From Halorubrum sp. PV6 (GTDB taxonomy: Archaea > Halobacteriota > Halobacteria > Halobacteriales > Haloferacaceae), in NCBI RefSeq assembly GCF_003990725.2, contig NZ_CP030064.1:744001-808000 (forward strand): a stretch of 64,000 nt of DNA, written 5' to 3'. Positions 29,905 through 50,145 of this stretch are shown here, piece by piece. The stretch's first letter is position 1. The number at the start of each line of letters is the position of its first letter. Under the pieces are notes generated by a model. It saw nothing but the letters and a program-made list of their open reading frames with translations. It searched no databases and was not told the origin of the DNA. The translations under genes were made by a program, and so were the position numbers.

Positions 29905-29911
29905 GGGAAGT

Positions 29912-30218
29912 GGACTAGGTCGGGCGGTTAGGCCCCGCTCGTCACCCGTGAGGTAGTCTTTAGCGGGGACCGAACAGCGGGCGCGTCCGGTCTGACCGGC
30001 ACGGGCCCCGAGAGCCAACGTGGAAGCCTCGTCCGCCGGGGACAGCGGTCCGTGGCGCCCGCTCGCAGGAGCGGTCCGTCACGGTTCGTCGGCGACACCG
30101 GGTCAGGCGCGGAAGCGAGCAGCCCACCGCCGGACGCCCGTCGCTCGTCGGGTCGCGGGGTGGAGAAGGCAACCGGGATACCCCGCGCCGGAACGCCGGG
30201 CCACCCCGTCTGTCCACC
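29912..30218 (+). ncRNA. ffs: Signal recognition particle RNA (7S RNA)
   Basis: The conserved SRP54-binding domain is present: GGTCAGG at 30101-30107, GGAAG at 30111-30115 and AGCAGCCC at 30118-30125, the asymmetric and symmetric loops of helix 8. The 5' and 3' ends pair: GTGGAC at 29910-29915 with GTCCAC at 30212-30217, then CGGGCGGTTAGGCCC with GGGCCACCCCG as helix 1 and following, typical of archaeal SRP RNA. An internal hairpin (CCCCGCT with AGCGGGG, 29934-29967) fits the helix 3-4 region. About 306 nt matches haloarchaeal 7S RNA. The RNA targets nascent membrane and secretory proteins with SRP19 and SRP54. Exact ends are accurate to perhaps 15 bases. Several open frames across this stretch are spurious. 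Confidence 0.94.
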
Positions 30219-30273
30219 ATTCATACGCGGTCGCTATCCTCGGAGAGCGGCAGATGTCCGCAGCGTCGCCGGA

Positions 30274-41880: not shown

Positions 41881-43105
41881 ATGACAGACATCACGGAGGC
41901 TTCGTCGGACACCCCGGCGGATCGAGTTCTTCCAGGGCACGATAGCTTCTAACATCGATATCGGTCCTGTACGGATCTTCGACACGACGTTACGAGACGG
42001 TGAACAGTCACCACGAACGTCGTTCAGCTACGACGAGAAACGCCGCATAGCGGCGACGCTGGACGACATGAACACCCACGTCATCGAGGCGGGGTTCCCG
42101 GTGAACTCGGACGCGGAGTTCGAGGCGGTAAGCGACATCGCCGCCGCGACGGACACCACCGTCTGCGGGCTCGCGCGGGTCGTCGAGGGCGACATCGACG
42201 CCGCCATCGACTCCGGCGTCGAGATGGTCCACGTGTTCGTCTCCACCAGCGACGTACAGCTGGAGGATTCGATGCACGCGACCCGGCAGGAGGCGAAACA
42301 GCGCGCCATCGACGCCGTCGAGCAGGTGAAAGACGCCGGCGTCGAGTGCATGTTCTCGCCGATGGACGCGACGCGGACCGACCCCGACTACCTGCGGGAC
42401 ATCGTCGAGGCGGTCTCGGACGCGGGCACCGACTGGATCAACATCCCCGACACGTGCGGCGTCGCGATGCCGACCAGCTTCGGGAAGACGGTGAAGGCCG
42501 TCGTCGAGGCGACCGACGCCCGCGTCGACGTCCACACCCACGACGACTTCGGGATGGCCGCGGCCAACGCCGTCACCGGCTTCGAGAACGGCGCGGAGCA
42601 GGCGCAGGTGTCGGTCAACGGGATCGGCGAGCGCGCCGGCAACGCCGCCTACGAGGAGGTCGTCATGGCGGTCGAATCGGTGTACGGCGTCGACACCGGC
42701 ATCGACACCACGCAGATCACCAAGCTGGCCCGCATCGTGGAGGAGGCGTCGGACATCCCGGTGCCGGCGAACAAACCCGTCACCGGGCGGAACGCCTTCG
42801 CTCACGAGTCGGGCATCCACGCCGCGGGCGTCATCGAGAACGCCGACACGTTCGAGACCGGCGTGATGACCCCCGAGATGGTCGGCGCCGAGCGCGAGTT
42901 CGTCCTCGGGAAACACACCGGCACTCACAGCGTGCGCAAGCACCTCGTCGAGGCCGGGTTCGACCCGACGGACAGCGAGGTCCGGCGTATCACCAAACGC
43001 GTCAAGGAGTACGGCTCCGGCAAGCGGCAGGTGACCGCCGGCGACGTCGAGCGGTTCGCCGAGGAGGCGAGCATCGACCGCGATGAGGAGGAGGTCCGGA
43101 TCTGA
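41881..43105 (+). CDS. leuA: 2-isopropylmalate/citramalate synthase, apparent frameshift near its start
   Basis: About 408 residues if joined. Condenses acetyl-CoA with 2-oxoisovalerate (or pyruvate) as the first committed step to leucine (or isoleucine). The DRE-TIM barrel is clear: RIFDTTLRDGEQSPRTSFSY with the metal-binding Asp, WINIPDTCGVAMP, VDVHTHDDFGMA with HxH, and NAFAHESGIHAAGV. There is no C-terminal LeuA allosteric domain, which suggests a feedback-insensitive or citramalate-type enzyme. Reading from ATG 41881 gives MTDITEASSDTP and then a stop at 41950. The family sequence (IEFFQGT then the DTTLRDGEQ motif) lies in the frame one base further on, which has no start codon before 42068. 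Removing one G at about 41916-41920 would give DTPRIEFFQGT. Assembly error, recent mutation or programmed shift are all possible. Confidence 0.85.
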
Positions 43106-43225: not shown

Positions 43226-43235
43226 GATTTATACC
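43226..43235 (+). promoter_or_regulatory. TATA box of the ilvB leader
   Basis: GATTTATACC is centred about 27-28 bases before the ATG of the 23-codon leader ORF at 43259. This is the strongest TATA match in the leuA-ilvB spacer and predicts a transcript starting at about 43257 with a 210-nt leader before ilvB. Confidence 0.65.
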
Positions 43236-43258
43236 TCGGCCGCATTGCTCGATCCGAG

Positions 43259-43330
43259 ATGCGACGGCACACCGCGCGCCAGACGACCGCTGCCGCCGGA
43301 GCCGTCGCGCCGATTATTGTAGGGGTATAA
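43259..43330 (+). CDS. Putative 23-residue leader peptide ending IIVGV
   Basis: ATG to TAA, reading MRRHTARQTTAAAG then AVAPIIVGV. The ATG sits at leaderless distance from the TATA box at 43226-43235. The last codons are ATT ATT GTA GGG GTA TAA: two Ile and two Val codons, in forms (ATT, GTA) that are uncommon in this GC-rich window, where ATC and GTC/GTG dominate. The GTA GGG G stretch is also the 5' arm of the hairpin at 43318-43339. It precedes ilvBNC-leuCDB, whose products make Ile, Val and Leu. The arrangement copies bacterial ilv leader peptides. Translation is not shown, and a 23-codon ORF can arise by chance. Confidence 0.5.
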   Translation: MRRHTARQTTAAAGAVAPIIVGV

Positions 43331-43339
43331 GCCCCTACA
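43318..43339 (+). terminator. Perfect 8-bp hairpin after the leader ORF (attenuator or operator)
   Basis: TGTAGGGG at 43318-43325, a 6-base loop TATAAG, and CCCCTACA at 43332-43339. The sequence CTACCCTTTCCTC follows, a weak U-tract. As RNA it could be a terminator. As DNA it is a dyad around a TATA-like GTATAA that could serve as a second ilvB promoter starting near 43354, in which case the dyad would be an operator. Confidence 0.5.
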
Positions 43340-43469
43340 CTACCCTTTCCTCATCGACGCCACGTATCGACGAACGCCAGCGAGCGAGCCAGTTTTCGCC
43401 CACCGATTCGGCGTTCGGACCGACCGACTCTCACAGCCGCGAGATGCACCACCGAACACCACCACGACA

Positions 43470-45272
43470 ATGAGCGACACAGCAGCACAGCCACGAGAGG
43501 ACGACGCGGAGGACACGGACGACCCCACCGAGGGCGGAACGGGCGACCCATCGGACGACCACGGCTCGGGGCCGGTGTCGACGGGCGCCGAGTCGGTCGT
43601 CGCCGCGCTGGAAACGGCCGGCGCCGAGACCGCCTTCGGCGTGCAGGGCGGCGCGATCATGCCCGTCTACGACGCCCTGTACAGCTCGTCGATCCGGCAC
43701 GTGACGATGGCCCACGAGCAGGGCGCGGCCCACGCCGCCGACGCGTACGGCGTCGTCGCCGGCGAACCGGGCCTCTGTCTCGCGACGTCGGGCCCCGGCG
43801 CGACCAACCTCGTCACCGGCATCGCCGACGCCGACATGGACTCCGACGCCATGCTCGCGTTGACCGGGCAGGTGCCGACCGAGTTCGTCGGCAACGACGC
43901 GTTCCAGGAGACCGACACGGTCGGCGTCACGCGCCCGATCACGAAACACAACTACTTCGCTCACGGCGCGGACAGCGTCGGCGACACCGTCGGCGAGGCG
44001 TTCGAACTGGCGCGCGCGGGGCGCCCCGGTCCGACGCTCGTCGACCTCCCGAAGGACGTGACCCAAGACGAGACGAACGAGACGCCCGGCCCGGCGACGG
44101 CGCCGCCCGGAACCGATCCCGACCCGAACGCCGACGCCGACGCCGTCGAGGAGGCCGCCCGCGCCATCGAGGCGGCCGAACGGCCCCTGTGCCTGTTCGG
44201 CGGCGGCGTGATCAAAGCCGAGGCGAGCGACGCCGCGCGAAGCTTCGCTCGCACGTACGGGATTCCCGTGACGACGACGATGCCGGGAATCGGCTCGTTC
44301 CCCGAAGACGACGACCTCTGCCTCTCGTGGGCGGGGATGCACGGGACCGGCTACGCGAACATGGCGATCACCCACACCGACTGCCTTATCGCGGTCGGCA
44401 CTCGCTTCGACGACCGGCTGACCGGCGGCATCGACACGTTCGCCCCGGAGGCGGAAGTCGTCCACGTCGACATCGACCCGGCCGAAATCTCGAAGAACGT
44501 CCACGCCGACTACCCGCTCATCGGCGACGCCGACCGCGTCCTCGACCAGTTGACCGCGGCGGTCCGCGAGGCGCCGGACGCCGAGGCGTGGCGTGACCGG
44601 TGTGCGGAGTGGAAAGAGACGTATCCGCTCACGTACGCGACCCCGGACGACGAGCCGCTGAAGCCGCAGTTCGTCGTCGAGGCGTTCGACGAGGCGACCG
44701 ACGACGACACCATCGTGACGACCGGCGTCGGCCAACACCAGATGTGGGCCTCCCAGTTCTGGACGTACACGGAGCCCCGGACGTGGGTCTCCTCGCACGG
44801 GCTGGGCACGATGGGATACGGCGTGCCCGCCGCGGTCGGCGCGCGCGTCGCGGCCGACACGATGGGCGAGGAGGACCGCGACGTGGTGTGTTTCGACGGC
44901 GACGGCTCCTTCCTGATGACGATGCAGGAGCTCTCGGTGGCCGTCCGCGAGGACCTGAACATCACCATCGCCGTGCTCAACAACGAGTACATCGGCATGG
45001 TGCGTCAGTGGCAGGACGCCTTCTACGAGGGCCGTCACATGGCCTCGGATTACACGTGGATGCCCGAGTTCGACAAGCTCGCCGAGGCGTTCGGCGCGCT
45101 CGGCCTCCGCGTCGACGACTACGACGAGGTCGCGCCCGCAGTCGAGGAGGCCCTCGACTACGACGGGCCCGTCGTGATCGACTTCCACGTCGACCCCGAG
45201 GAGAACGTTCTCCCGATGGTGCCGAGCGGCGGTGCAAACGGCCAGTTCGCGGCCGTGGAGGACCAGCTATGA
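43470..45272 (+). CDS. ilvB: Acetolactate synthase large subunit
   Basis: 600-residue TPP- and FAD-dependent enzyme making acetolactate (Val/Leu) or acetohydroxybutyrate (Ile). An acidic N-terminal tail of about 35 residues precedes the catalytic part. Glu83 in AHEQGAAHAADAYG is the TPP-activating Glu. The TPP/Mg motif is FDGDGSFLMTMQELSV at about 475-490, with LNNEYIGMVRQWQ after it. The central FAD domain contains FGGGVIKAEASD and VGTRFDDRLTGG. Length is standard. It begins at ATG 43470 after a long leader and overlaps ilvN by the ATGA junction. Confidence 0.96.
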   Translation: MSDTAAQPREDDAEDTDDPTEGGTGDPSDDHGSGPVSTGAESVVAALETAGAETAFGVQGGAIMPVYDALYSSSIRHVTMAHEQGAAHAADAYGVVAGEPGLCLATSGPGATNLVTGIADADMDSDAMLALTGQVPTEFVGNDAFQETDTVGVTRPITKHNYFAHGADSVGDTVGEAFELARAGRPGPTLVDLPKDVTQDETNETPGPATAPPGTDPDPNADADAVEEAARAIEAAERPLCLFGGGVIKAEASDAARSFARTYGIPVTTTMPGIGSFPEDDDLCLSWAGMHGTGYANMAITHTDCLIAVGTRFDDRLTGGIDTFAPEAEVVHVDIDPAEISKNVHADYPLIGDADRVLDQLTAAVREAPDAEAWRDRCAEWKETYPLTYATPDDEPLKPQFVVEAFDEATDDDTIVTTGVGQHQMWASQFWTYTEPRTWVSSHGLGTMGYGVPAAVGARVAADTMGEEDRDVVCFDGDGSFLMTMQELSVAVREDLNITIAVLNNEYIGMVRQWQDAFYEGRHMASDYTWMPEFDKLAEAFGALGLRVDDYDEVAPAVEEALDYDGPVVIDFHVDPEENVLPMVPSGGANGQFAAVEDQL

Positions 45273-45985
45273 GCGACGACGCCCCCGACGCCCGACCCGC
45301 GACCGACGGCGGCTCCGCGTCCGACGCCGGGAGCGGCGCCGAGGCCCGGCCGGCCGCGGCCGACCAGCCCGCGCCGGAAGAGCGCGAGCAGCCGGAGGGC
45401 CGTCGCAACCTCGAAGGGATCCGCATCGACCCCGTCGTCGAGGCGGAACACGACTCCCGTCGCGCCGTCATCTCGGCGCTCGTGGAAGACGAGCCGGGCG
45501 TGCTCGCGCGCGTCTCCGGGCTCGTCTCCCGCCGGCAGTTCAACATCGAGAGCCTCACCGTCGGCCCCACGACCGTCGAGGGCCACTCGCGGATCACGAT
45601 GGTCGTCGAGGAGACGGACCCCGGCATCGACCAGATTGAAAAGCAGATGGCGAAGCTGAAGCCGGTCATCTCGGTCGGCGAGGTGTCCGGCGACGCGGTC
45701 ACGGCCGAACTCGTCCTGTTAAAGGTCGAGGCCGACGACCCCGCGGCGGTCCACGCTGTCACCGAGATGTACGACGGTCGGACGCTCGACGCCGGGCCGC
45801 GAACGATCACCGTGCAACTCACCGGCGACGAAGACCGGATCGACGACGCGCTCGACGCGTTCCGCCAGTTCGGCATCCTCGAAATCGCCCGGACGGGCCA
45901 GACGGCGCTCGCGCGCGGCGACACCCCCACCGCACCTGGAGAGAAACCCGGAACGGCCGGCGAACCGACAACCCACGGCGATTAA
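45269..45985 (+). CDS. ilvN: Acetolactate synthase small (regulatory) subunit
   Basis: 238 residues, longer than many because of a disordered acidic N-terminal tail (about 1-45) and C-terminal tail. The core is an ACT domain ([39 protein letters not shown]) that binds valine for feedback control, and a second half ([29 protein letters not shown]) of the IlvH type. It overlaps ilvB by four bases (ATGA), so the subunits are coupled. Confidence 0.94.
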
Positions 45986-45998
45986 TTTCCCACAACAC

Positions 45999-47057
45999 AT
46001 GACCGACGCAGACACGCAGACGTTCGATTCGACAGTATACTACGACGACGACGCAGACGAGGAGGCGATCGCACACAAGACCGTCGCCGTCCTCGGCTAC
46101 GGGTCGCAGGGCCACGCGCACGCACAGAACCTCGCCGACAGCGGGGTCGACGTGGTCGTCGGCCTCCGCGAGAGCAGTTCCTCGTGGGACGCCGCGGAGA
46201 GCGACGGGCTCCGCGTCGCGACCCCTGCCGAGGCGGCCGCGGAAGCCGACATCGTGAGCGTCCTCGTCCCGGACACGGTTCAGCCGGACGTGTACGAGAA
46301 CGCGGTCGAGCCGAACCTCGACGCGGGCGACACGCTCCAGTTCGCCCACGGGTTCAACATCCACTACAACCAGATCCAGCCGCCCGAAGACGTCGACGTG
46401 ACGATGGTCGCGCCGAAGTCGCCGGGCCACCTCGTGCGCCGTAACTACGAGAACGACGAGGGGACGCCCGGCCTGCTGGCGGTCTACCAGGACGCGACCG
46501 GCGACGCCCACGACGAGGGGCTCGCGTACGCGGCCGCCATCGGCTGTACCCGCGCCGGCGTCGTTGAGACGTCGTTCCGCGAGGAGACGGAGACCGACCT
46601 GTTCGGCGAGCAGGCCGTCCTCTGTGGCGGCGTTACCTCGCTGGTGAAACAGGGCTACGAGACGCTCGTCGACGCGGGCTACTCGCCGGAGATGGCCTAC
46701 TTCGAGTGTCTCAACGAGCTGAAACTCATCGTCGACCTGATGTACGAAGACGGACTCGGCGGCATGTGGGACTCCGTCTCCGACACCGCCGAGTACGGCG
46801 GGCTCACGCAGGGTGACGTCGTCGTCGACGAGCACGCCCGCGAGAACATGGAGGAAGTGCTGGAGAAGGTCCAGAACGGCGAGTTCGCCCGCGAGTGGAT
46901 CGCCGAGAACCAGGCGGGCCGGCCCTCCTACACGCAGCTCCGGACGGCCGAGAAGAACCACGAAATCGAGGCCGTCGGCGAGGAGCTTCGCGGCCTGTTC
47001 TCGTGGCAGGAGGAGGCCGAAGAGGACGAAGAGGAGTCGGCCGAGGTGACCGCCTGA
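45999..47057 (+). CDS. ilvC: Ketol-acid reductoisomerase
   Basis: 352 residues, class I. NADPH-dependent rearrangement and reduction of acetolactate to dihydroxyisovalerate. The Rossmann fingerprint is [17 protein letters not shown] at about 28-44, followed by the [12 protein letters not shown] cofactor-specificity loop. The knotted C-terminal domain has the metal-binding [12 protein letters not shown] and [21 protein letters not shown] short acidic tail ([15 protein letters not shown]) is added. It begins 13 bases after ilvN and its stop overlaps the leuC start (TGATG). Confidence 0.96.
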
Positions 47058-48517
47058 TGAGCGAGGGAACGCTGTACGACAAGGTATGGGAGCGCCACAA
47101 GGTAACGGAGCTCCCGAACGGGCAAGACCAGCTCTTCATCGGCCTCCACCTCGTTCACGAGGTGACGAGTCCGCAGGCGTTCGGGATGCTTCGCGAGCGC
47201 GACCTCGACGTCGCGTACCCGGACCAGACGTTCGCCACGACCGACCATATCGCGCCCACCGAAGCCGACAAGCGCGAACGACCGCTGGCCGACGACCAGG
47301 CCGAGGAGATGCTCTCGGCGCTCGAACGCAACACGAGCGAGAGCGGCATCACCTTCTTCGGCTTCGAGTCCGGCAAGCAGGGGATCACCCACGTCGTCGC
47401 GCCGGAGCTGGGCCTCTCCCAGCCGGGGATGACGGTCGCGTGCGGCGACAGCCACACGGCGACTCACGGCGCGTTCGGCTCCATCGGCGTCGGCATCGGA
47501 ACGAGCCAGATCCGCGACGTGCTCGCGACGGGCTGTATCGCGGCCGACAAACAGAAGGTGCGCCGGATCGAGGTCGAGGGCGAGCTCGGCGAGGGCGTCT
47601 ACGCGAAGGACGTGATCATGAAAGTGATCAAAGACCTCGGCGTCGACGGCGGCGTGGGCCACGTGTACGAGTACGGCGGTCCCGCCATCGAGGCGCTCGA
47701 CATGGAGGGGCGGCTCGCCGTCTGTAACATGTCCATCGAGGGCGGCGCTCGCGCCGGGTACGTCAACCCCGACGAGACCACCTACGAGTACCTGCGGGGT
47801 CGCGAGTACGTCCCCGAAGGCGAGGCGTTCGAGGAGCGGAAGCAGTACTGGGAGTCGGTCGCCTCCGACGACGACGCGGAGTACGACGACGTCGTCACCG
47901 TCGACGCGGACGGTCTCGACCCCCTCGTCACGTGGGGGATAAACCCCGGACAGGTGGTCGGGATCGACGAGCCGGTGCCGCACCCGGACGACTTCGAGGC
48001 CCGCACGGACCGCGAGGCCGCCGAGAAGGCGATCGATCACATGGACGTCGAGCCCGGCCAGTCGATGCTCGGCTACGATGTCGACGTGGCCTTCCTCGGC
48101 ACCTGCACGAACGGCCGGCTCTCGGACTTCGAGGAGGCGGCGCGGATCTTAGAGAACCACAGCGTCGACGAGGACGTGCGCGCGCTCGCGGTGCCCGGCT
48201 CGGAGACGGTCCGCGCGCAGTGCGAGGAGCGCGGCATCGATCAGACGTTCATCGAGGCCGGCTTCCAGTGGCGCCGCGCCGGCTGCTCGATGTGTCTCGC
48301 GATGAACGACGACCAGCTCGGCGCCGGCGAGGTCTGTGCGTCCTCGTCGAACCGCAACTTCATCGGCCGGCAGGGGTCGAAGGAGGGGCGAACGGTGCTG
48401 ATGAGTCCCGCGATGGTCGCGGCCGCGGCCGTCGAGGGAGAGGTCGTCGACGCGCGCGACTACCTGCGCGACGGGCCGACCGGCGGCGCCGGCGGCGTCG
48501 AGGAGGTGGCCGACTGA
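47057..48517 (+). CDS. leuC: 3-isopropylmalate dehydratase large subunit
   Basis: 486 residues, aconitase family. Isomerises 2- to 3-isopropylmalate with LeuD. The 4Fe-4S ligands are visible at Cys350 (GTCTNGR), Cys410 and Cys413 (AGCSMCLAMN). CGDSHTATHGAFG and the N-terminal TLYDKVWERH are typical; active-site elements GTSQIRDVLAT and SSSNRNFIGRQG are intact. The start shares a base with the ilvC stop, and its own TGA overlaps the ATG of leuD (TGATG), indicating tight coupling. Confidence 0.96.
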   Translation: MSEGTLYDKVWERHKVTELPNGQDQLFIGLHLVHEVTSPQAFGMLRERDLDVAYPDQTFATTDHIAPTEADKRERPLADDQAEEMLSALERNTSESGITFFGFESGKQGITHVVAPELGLSQPGMTVACGDSHTATHGAFGSIGVGIGTSQIRDVLATGCIAADKQKVRRIEVEGELGEGVYAKDVIMKVIKDLGVDGGVGHVYEYGGPAIEALDMEGRLAVCNMSIEGGARAGYVNPDETTYEYLRGREYVPEGEAFEERKQYWESVASDDDAEYDDVVTVDADGLDPLVTWGINPGQVVGIDEPVPHPDDFEARTDREAAEKAIDHMDVEPGQSMLGYDVDVAFLGTCTNGRLSDFEEAARILENHSVDEDVRALAVPGSETVRAQCEERGIDQTFIEAGFQWRRAGCSMCLAMNDDQLGAGEVCASSSNRNFIGRQGSKEGRTVLMSPAMVAAAAVEGEVVDARDYLRDGPTGGAGGVEEVAD

Positions 48518-49146
48518 TGGCTCCCGAGGCGAGCGCGGGCGACGACGGGGAGCAACACATCACCGAGGTGTCCGGGACGGGCGTGCCGATCCCAGGCGAC
48601 GACGTCGACACCGACCAGATCCTGCCGGCGCAGTTCATGAAGGAGGTCACGTTCGACAACATGGCGGACTACCTCTTTTACGACGCCCGGCGCGACGAGA
48701 ACGAGGAGCTCAACGACCACCCGCTCAACCGCTTCGAGGGCGCGTCGATCGCGGTGGTCAACTCCAACTTCGGCTGCGGCTCCTCTCGGGAGCACGCGCC
48801 GCAGGCGATGATGCGATGGGGCGTCGACGGGGTCGTCGGCGAGTCGTACGCCGAGATCTTCCGGGACAACTGCAAGTCGCTGGGCATCCCCGCGGTCACC
48901 GCGGACCACGAGACCGTGGTGGCGCTCCAGGAGTGGATCGAAGCGAATCCCGACGGCGACATCGAGATCGACGTCGAGGGCGAGACCGTCACCTACGGCG
49001 ACACCGTCATCGATGTCGACGTGGACGACGCGATGCGAGAGGCCCTCGTCGAGGGTATCTGGGACACGACCGCGCTGATGTACTCGAACCGAAGCAAGGT
49101 CGACTCGACCGTCGACGGGCTTCCGTACGTCGAGGGTGACGACTGA
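48517..49146 (+). CDS. leuD: 3-isopropylmalate dehydratase small subunit
   Basis: 209 residues, the swivel domain partnering LeuC. Elements: GDDVDTDQILPAQFMKEV, NFGCGSSREHAPQAMMRWG with the substrate-binding SSREHAP, and ESYAEIFRDNCKSLGIPAV. An acidic tail extends either end, as common in haloarchaea. It begins on the leuC stop codon and ends immediately before the leuB ATG at 49147. Confidence 0.95.
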   Translation: MAPEASAGDDGEQHITEVSGTGVPIPGDDVDTDQILPAQFMKEVTFDNMADYLFYDARRDENEELNDHPLNRFEGASIAVVNSNFGCGSSREHAPQAMMRWGVDGVVGESYAEIFRDNCKSLGIPAVTADHETVVALQEWIEANPDGDIEIDVEGETVTYGDTVIDVDVDDAMREALVEGIWDTTALMYSNRSKVDSTVDGLPYVEGDD

Positions 49147-50145
49147 ATGGGCGACGAGATCGTCGTCATCGAGGGCGACGGGATCGGCCGCGAGGTCATC
49201 CCCGCCGCCGTCGACGTGTTGGAGGCGTTCGACCTCGACCTCGAGTTCGTCGCCGCCGACGCGGGCGACGCGACGAAGGAGGCGACCGGCGAGGCGCTCC
49301 CGGCGGAGACGTACGACCTCGCCGCCGACGCGGACGCGACGCTGTTCGGCGCGGCCGGCGAGACGGCCGCGGACGTCATCCTCCCGCTGCGCGACGCGGT
49401 CGGGTCGTTCGTCAACGTCCGGCCCGCCAAAGCGTACCCCGGCGTCGACGCGCTCCGCCCGGAGACGGACGTGGTCTTCCTCCGCGAGAACACCGAGGGC
49501 GTCTACTCGGGCCACGAATCCCGGCTCTCCGAGGACCTCTCGACGCTGACGCGCGTCGTCACCTCGCCGGCCTCGCGCGAACTGGCCGAGTACGCCTGCG
49601 AGTTCGTCGAGGACGGGCGCGGTCCGGCCGGCGGCCCCGAAGACGGGTTCACGGTCGCGCACAAGGCGAACGTGATGCGCGAGACCGACGGGCGGTTCCG
49701 CGACGAGGTGCTCGCGGTCGCCGAGGAGCAGGGCGTCGACGCCGACGAGGAGCTGATGGACGCGTTCGCGACGAAGCTCCCGCTGAATCCGAACCAGTAC
49801 GGCGTGATCGTCTGTCCGAACCTCGCGGGCGACGTCCTCTCGGATCTGGCGGCTGGACTCGTCGGCGGGCTCGGACTGTTACCCTCGGCGAACATCGGCC
49901 ACGACAACGCGCTGTTCGAGCCGGTCCACGGGACCGCGCCCGACATCGCGGGCGAGGGGGTCGCCAACCCCACGGCGGCGATCCTGTCGGCCGCGATGCT
50001 CCTCGCACACCTCGGTCACGAGGCCGAGGCCGAGCGCGTGCGCGACGCGGTCGAAGGCGTGCTGTCCGACGGCCCGCGCACCGGCGACCTCGGCGGCGAC
50101 GCGACGACCGGCGAGGTCACGGACGCGGTCTTAGACCGGCTGTAA
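49147..50145 (+). CDS. leuB: 3-isopropylmalate dehydrogenase
   Basis: 332 residues. NAD-dependent oxidative decarboxylation giving 2-oxoisocaproate, the leucine precursor. [20 protein letters not shown] opens the fold; [14 protein letters not shown] has the substrate loop, [13 protein letters not shown] the catalytic Lys, [20 protein letters not shown] the Asp metal ligands, and [13 protein letters not shown] the cofactor loop. It follows leuD without a gap and closes the operon. A small hairpin at its stop (CCGGCT 50136-50141 with AGCCGG 50145-50150) may take part in transcript ending. Confidence 0.95.

Follow-up and report, generated by a model that had tools for sequence, protein, structure and literature searches.

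The ilvBNC-leuCDB operon of haloarchaea is preceded by a short leader that likely acts as a ribosome-sensed attenuator responding to branched-chain amino acids (probability about 0.72). Comparison across genomes shows a conserved in-frame leader, its control codons and two hairpins, P1 and P2, with no alternative hairpin; ribosome stalling, termination and the physiological response are inferred. A preliminary description, made from sequence alone, had proposed an attenuator-like leader at this site. That proposal is supported, and the transcription start, termination at the hairpin and dependence on amino acids remain inferences.

The window analysed here is a 64,000-nt stretch of the Halorubrum sp. 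PV6 genome (NZ_CP030064.1, positions 744,001-808,000, forward strand). In it, leuA lies upstream of the leader, and ilvB-ilvN-ilvC-leuC-leuD-leuB follow downstream (Table 1). The leader ATG at 43259 is located about 28 nt from the centre of the TATA box, which corresponds to leaderless spacing, and the reading frame closes with ATT ATT GTA GGG GTA TAA. In the preliminary description, the TATA box, the ATG, the 23-codon reading frame and a perfect 8-bp hairpin at 43318-43339 had been proposed, and the Ile and Val codons had been described as uncommon. All coordinates held, as did the hairpin (TGTAGGGG/CCCCTACA, stable when compared with shuffled sequences) and the rarity of the codons: in the operon genes, GTA represents 2.2% of Val codons and ATT 1.2% of Ile codons. 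Among Rfam families, no match to a described RNA was obtained at the leader locus.

Table 1. Features of the ilvB leader and its operon (window coordinates)
Feature	Position	Strand	Support
TATA box (TTTATA) of leader promoter	43228..43233	+	sequence; nearly invariant across Halorubrum orthologues
Leaderless leader ORF, MRRHTARQTTAAAGAVAPIIVGV	43259..43330	+	23 codons plus TAA; frame conservation
P1 5' arm, GCGACGGC	43261..43268	+	pairs with 43301-43308; permutation test
P1 3' arm, GCCGTCGC	43301..43308	+	pairs with 43261-43268; partner-exchange test
Control codons ATT ATT GTA (Ile Ile Val), rare	43313..43321	+	codon counts, conservation
P2 5' arm, TGTAGGGG, overlapping the control codons	43318..43325	+	pairs with 43332-43339
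Leader stop codon, inside P2 loop	43328..43330	+	loop position conserved in 141/144 loci
P2 3' arm, CCCCTACA	43332..43339	+	pairs with 43318-43325
G-less C/U/A tract 3' of P2, possible site of termination	43336..43352	+	base composition across loci
ilvB, at the head of the operon	43470..45272	+	TIGR00118, 698 bits
ilvN, ilvC, leuC, leuD, leuB, co-directional and 3' of ilvB	45269..50145	+	gene order

In Halorubrum, 30 orthologous spacers were recovered on searching 59 related genomes, and all 30 retain the ATG, frame and C-terminus. The orthologous leader peptides comprise 24 residues and take the form MRR...AVAP(I)IVGV; that of the window has lost one residue through a one-codon deletion. Among these orthologues, variation at the Ile codon preceding GTA is confined to ATT and ATC and is thus synonymous, nearly all change in the last Val codon falls at the third base and is almost exclusively synonymous, and the stop alternates between TAA and TGA. 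Such a pattern points to selection on the reading frame; translation itself is inferred.

To cover the haloarchaea more widely, we located ilvB in 155 genomes of the order and took upstream regions from over 100 of them, which together with the genus set provided 149 readable ilvB loci. Of these 149 upstream regions, 144 contain the core sequence GTAGGGG, which is read in the frame of a short ORF. The ORF ends in (I)IVG(A/V)(x)stop; the stop lies one codon after GTA GGG GYN in 90 loci and one codon further in 52, hence within one or two codons in 142 of the 144 core-bearing loci. The TATA hexamer starts 29-36 nt from the start codon in 139/144 loci. When the best TATA-ATG pair of each locus was picked regardless of frame, every one of the 116 testable loci yielded a pair whose frame was open and matched that of the core, against a chance expectation of one third. 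These 116 loci are not independent events, the genomes being related, but about 50 genera are represented among them. A second collection, made up of named genera, has the leader in 76 of 80 loci, including those of Haloarcula, Haloquadratum, Halobellus, Halosimplex, Halomicrobium and Halobaculum, among others.

The codons near the end of the leader are strongly constrained. GTA is found in all 144 loci and is directly preceded by Ile in 139 (97%); ATT serves as the Ile codon in 103 of the 144, despite its rarity in the operon genes. Ile, Val and Leu make up about 10% of the codons located ten or more positions upstream of GTA, and their share rises to 99% in the position immediately preceding it; the sensing codons are often limited to one Ile and one Val. 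The constancy of GTAGGGG exceeds what pairing or amino acids alone demand. The preliminary description had proposed that its interpretation would be refuted if the dyad were conserved and the short ORF were not: ORF, frame, codons and hairpin are conserved together, which favours that interpretation. On this reading, short ORFs in front of the ilvB operon would gain a function in most of an order. At two loci, L073 and L065, the loop no longer holds a stop codon (TGA to TGG and TAG to TCG, respectively), and these leaders can be regarded as natural mutants.

Divergent leaders are informative as well. At two loci (L111 and L116), the arms of P2 read GGGCC/GGCCC instead of GGGG/CCCC, with ATT and GTA retained in frame. 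Second ilvB copies located away from leuA (L144, L145 and L146) are preceded by leaders ending in FVGAA, IIAIIAIIGVS and IIGASY before the stop, the last two without GTA. In the departing loci L111, L116, L145 and L146, branched-chain codons are kept while the nucleic-acid motif is lost. Divergent copies thus either restore the hairpin with other bases or put Ile in place of Val. Because they keep the codons and not the motif, a fixed binding site is disfavoured and a codon-reading device favoured.

The leader RNA can adopt two hairpins. P1 pairs the first leader codons with the segment just 5' of the Ile codons. We evaluated the arms by exchanging partners between 63 representatives less than 70% alike: native P1 partners reach -19.9 kcal/mol versus -16.3 kcal/mol for exchanged ones, a value as strong being obtained in 0 of 5000 permutations, and a base composition shared within each genome may contribute to this signal. 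The fold of P2 (43312-43342) has a predicted free energy of -15.2 kcal/mol, and none of 200 shuffled sequences was equally stable. In the same exchange test native P2 partners pair better than exchanged ones only weakly; the inner pairs (GGGG/CCCC) almost never vary and compensatory evidence for P2 is therefore limited. P2 encloses the control codons in its 5' arm and the stop codon in a loop of 5-9 nt. That its formation depends on the position of the ribosome is inferred from this geometry only.

Neither an antiterminator nor a bacterial-type terminator was detected. Since pairing between the P1 3' arm and the P2 5' arm is no better than with exchanged partners (421/2000 permutations), we find no antiterminator; among pairings of P1, P2, the tract and the downstream region, only P1 and P2 stand out. 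Behind P2, what had been taken for a weak T-tract proves to be a stretch of C, U and A that is almost free of G. It spans about 17 nt, is rich in C and T, and contains a mean of 0.5 G per 17 nt versus 26% G in the next 40 nt. T-runs after P2 do not exceed three in 127 of 144 loci and a scan for bacterial-type intrinsic terminators with a U-tract was negative, so that intrinsic termination of the bacterial kind is unlikely. The suggestion that the leader follows the logic of bacterial ilv attenuation thus holds in part.

We propose the following mechanism. Transcription would start at or a few bases from the leader ATG, and a ribosome would load on the leaderless end and trail RNA polymerase through the short ORF. 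The body of the ORF would fold into P1, and its final codons (Ile-Ile-Val-Gly-Val/Ala) would double as the 5' arm of P2. When Ile- or Val-tRNA is short, the ribosome would wait on the rare ATT or GTA codons and hold the P2 arm inside its mRNA channel; P2 would be blocked and the polymerase would continue into ilvBNC-leuCDB. When charged tRNA is plentiful, the ribosome would reach the stop in the loop and leave, and P2 would form beside naked C/U-rich RNA. Expression would then be cut back, most likely through hairpin-assisted or FttA/aCPSF1-type termination. Occlusion of the P2 5' arm by the ribosome is the simplest reading, and remains an inference, as does transcription termination at this leader. 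In Haloferax, one tested hairpin gave 59% termination in vivo, with much read-through, and intergenic termination there normally uses a T stretch (PMC7237163). Termination in archaea further relies on aCPSF1/FttA (PMC7515710, PMC8716108).

The main rival is post-transcriptional: the same Ile/Val-sensing ORF, through ribosome release and P2, would set the cutting, degradation or translation of ilvB mRNA without premature termination. All the leader evidence fits this model equally, the poor T-tract speaks for it, and in another archaeal family described below (f21) the gap between the end of the leader and ilvB is only about 10-50 nt, which would suit effects on ilvB initiation. However, the haloarchaeal leader stop usually lies more than 100 nt from ilvB, and pairing between P2 and the downstream region is not above that of exchanged partners; we consider this explanation unlikely. 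An operator is less likely still. Here GTAGGGG-N-CCCC would be a DNA (or RNA) site for a regulator and the ORF would be incidental, in agreement with a GTAGGGG arm that is almost invariant and kept even where GTA is unpaired. Against this, the arms are 5 to 9 nt apart depending on the locus, conservation extends to the reading frame, the synonymous pattern of change and the place of the stop, the motif in such a layout is single in the genome, and divergent loci drop it but retain the Ile/Val codons. A genome search for a repeated operator returned no second site of the same layout, other GTAGGGG matches lying in unrelated contexts, and the fixed half-site spacing (loop 5-9 nt) and several sites per genome expected of a palindrome bound by a dimeric regulator are not met. 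The preliminary description had considered, as an alternative, an operator around a second TATA box; this is not supported. A second promoter at GTATAA was rejected, the sequence being present in only 19/144 loci and replaced by GTCTGA in many Halorubrum species, and strong TATA-like sites between the hairpin and ilvB occur in 3/144 loci.

A TnaC-like arrest peptide may also be envisaged, in which nascent IVG(A/V) binds a free amino acid in the exit tunnel or stalls at the stop. The four C-terminal residues by the stop are indeed nearly constant. Yet divergent leaders, those of second ilvB copies and those of f21 carry other residues there and still retain branched-chain codons, and a fixed GTA codon is not expected from a peptide effect. 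Conservation of residues independent of codon choice, which an arrest peptide should display, is not met, and we hold this possibility to be very improbable.

Leader-peptide attenuation by amino acids is a textbook bacterial mechanism. The closest known system in layout is the ilvB-II motif, or ilvBNC attenuator, of Corynebacterium (PMC10272879, PMC11857589), in which, as in haloarchaea, an Ile/Leu/Val-rich upstream ORF precedes ilvBNC and extends across P1, with P2 following. The Corynebacterium element, however, is bacterial, its P2 is a U-tract intrinsic terminator and it possesses an antiterminator, whereas the haloarchaeal leader is archaeal, its ORF is leaderless, and control codons and stop lie inside P2. 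Enterobacterial ilv, leu and pheST (pheM) leaders carry codons for the amino acid of the pathway near the end of the ORF. The haloarchaeal leader resembles them in the position of its control codons at the end of a short ORF, and a pheS leader with a Phe run is also present in Halorubrum. Enterobacterial attenuators rely on a choice between 2:3 and 3:4 pairing and on U-tract terminators, neither of which is seen in the haloarchaeal ilvB leader. We thus describe an element that works like an attenuator and claim no membership in the bacterial family, since tests for two features of the classical family, antiterminator and U-tract, were negative. Upstream ORFs in long 5' UTRs of Haloferax volcanii (PMC4983044) are likewise leader ORFs with a mapped start in front of an aminoacyl-tRNA synthetase gene, but they were treated as possible small proteins, ilvB is absent from the table and attenuation was not proposed. 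The preliminary description had stated that ilv attenuation is not known to be established in archaea, and we found no report of archaeal leader-peptide amino acid attenuation in the searchable open literature, most subscription papers being outside this scope. Attenuation requires tight coupling of ribosome and polymerase, and a conserved haloarchaeal case would therefore offer a direct in vivo test of coupling. In these genetically tractable organisms it would also test factor-dependent termination, in a domain whose polymerase is eukaryote-like.

Leaders with cognate amino acid codons are also shown in front of f21 ilvB and Halorubrum pheS. In family f21, which belongs to the same phylum, a short ORF ending in a run of Ile, Val or Leu precedes ilvB in 30 of 30 examined loci. 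These ORFs start right behind a TATA-like box (examples are MLNLPVVVVC, MHTHYVNSIIISVSLVVLLVE and MSATLELNNFGVVLGVVLIVVVVLLL, each followed by a stop) and, at loci L414-L443 and L336-L342, are unrelated to the haloarchaeal ones. We infer that f21 corresponds to Archaeoglobi, as dsrA scores above its curated cut-off in 6 of 11 members tested. By our criterion, no leader with an Ile/Val/Leu run was found among the first 40 genomes fetched from other families of the phylum, with the exception of one long-distance, chance-looking ORF.

The pheS gene is preceded by a 24-codon ORF with a terminal Phe run (MALERATAGIARRADGDAFGFFFN, then a stop) in 11 of 22 Halorubrum (L192, L193, L196, L199, L201-L204, L206, L208 and L209), and such a leader occurs in 0 of 166 control loci-strands. 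The ORFs lie about 850-930 nt upstream of the match start and are followed by a GC-rich potential hairpin. This Phe-run leader was not found in the genome of the window, and in Halorubrum no leader rich in Trp or Tyr was found ahead of trpC, trpD and trpS/tyrS. In Haloferax volcanii, a 26-residue upstream ORF with a mapped start precedes pheS (PMC4983044). We may thus entertain a bolder hypothesis, for which the odds seem to us evenly balanced: ribosome-sensed attenuation may have arisen repeatedly in archaea, in haloarchaeal ilvB, in pheS and separately in Archaeoglobi-like ilvB. The haloarchaeal form would do without antiterminator or U-tract, a waiting ribosome covering both the hairpin and the C/U-rich RNA, and FttA/aCPSF1 releasing the polymerase otherwise.

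Two further observations concern the window. The 5' end of leuA (41881-42068) appears to need a +1 ribosomal frameshift, which is an inference. The ATG at 41881, the only start in leaderless position, opens MTDITEASSDTPADRVLPGHDSF followed by a stop; the catalytic LeuA body (DTTLRDGEQ...) lies in the +1 frame, without an ATG, GTG or TTG before it in the genome of the window and in many others. All 30 haloarchaeal loci compared (L444-L473) share this two-frame layout, and frame conservation shifts from 0 to +1 around an invariant block, TCGAGTTCTTC (41922-41932), which contains the Leu codon CTT. The start-codon problem of leuA, with a possible slippage tied to leucine, was raised by Pfeiffer and Dyall-Smith 2021 (PMC8305020). 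The window also contains an ordinary archaeal signal recognition particle RNA at 29908-30219 (RF01857, 177.9 bits).
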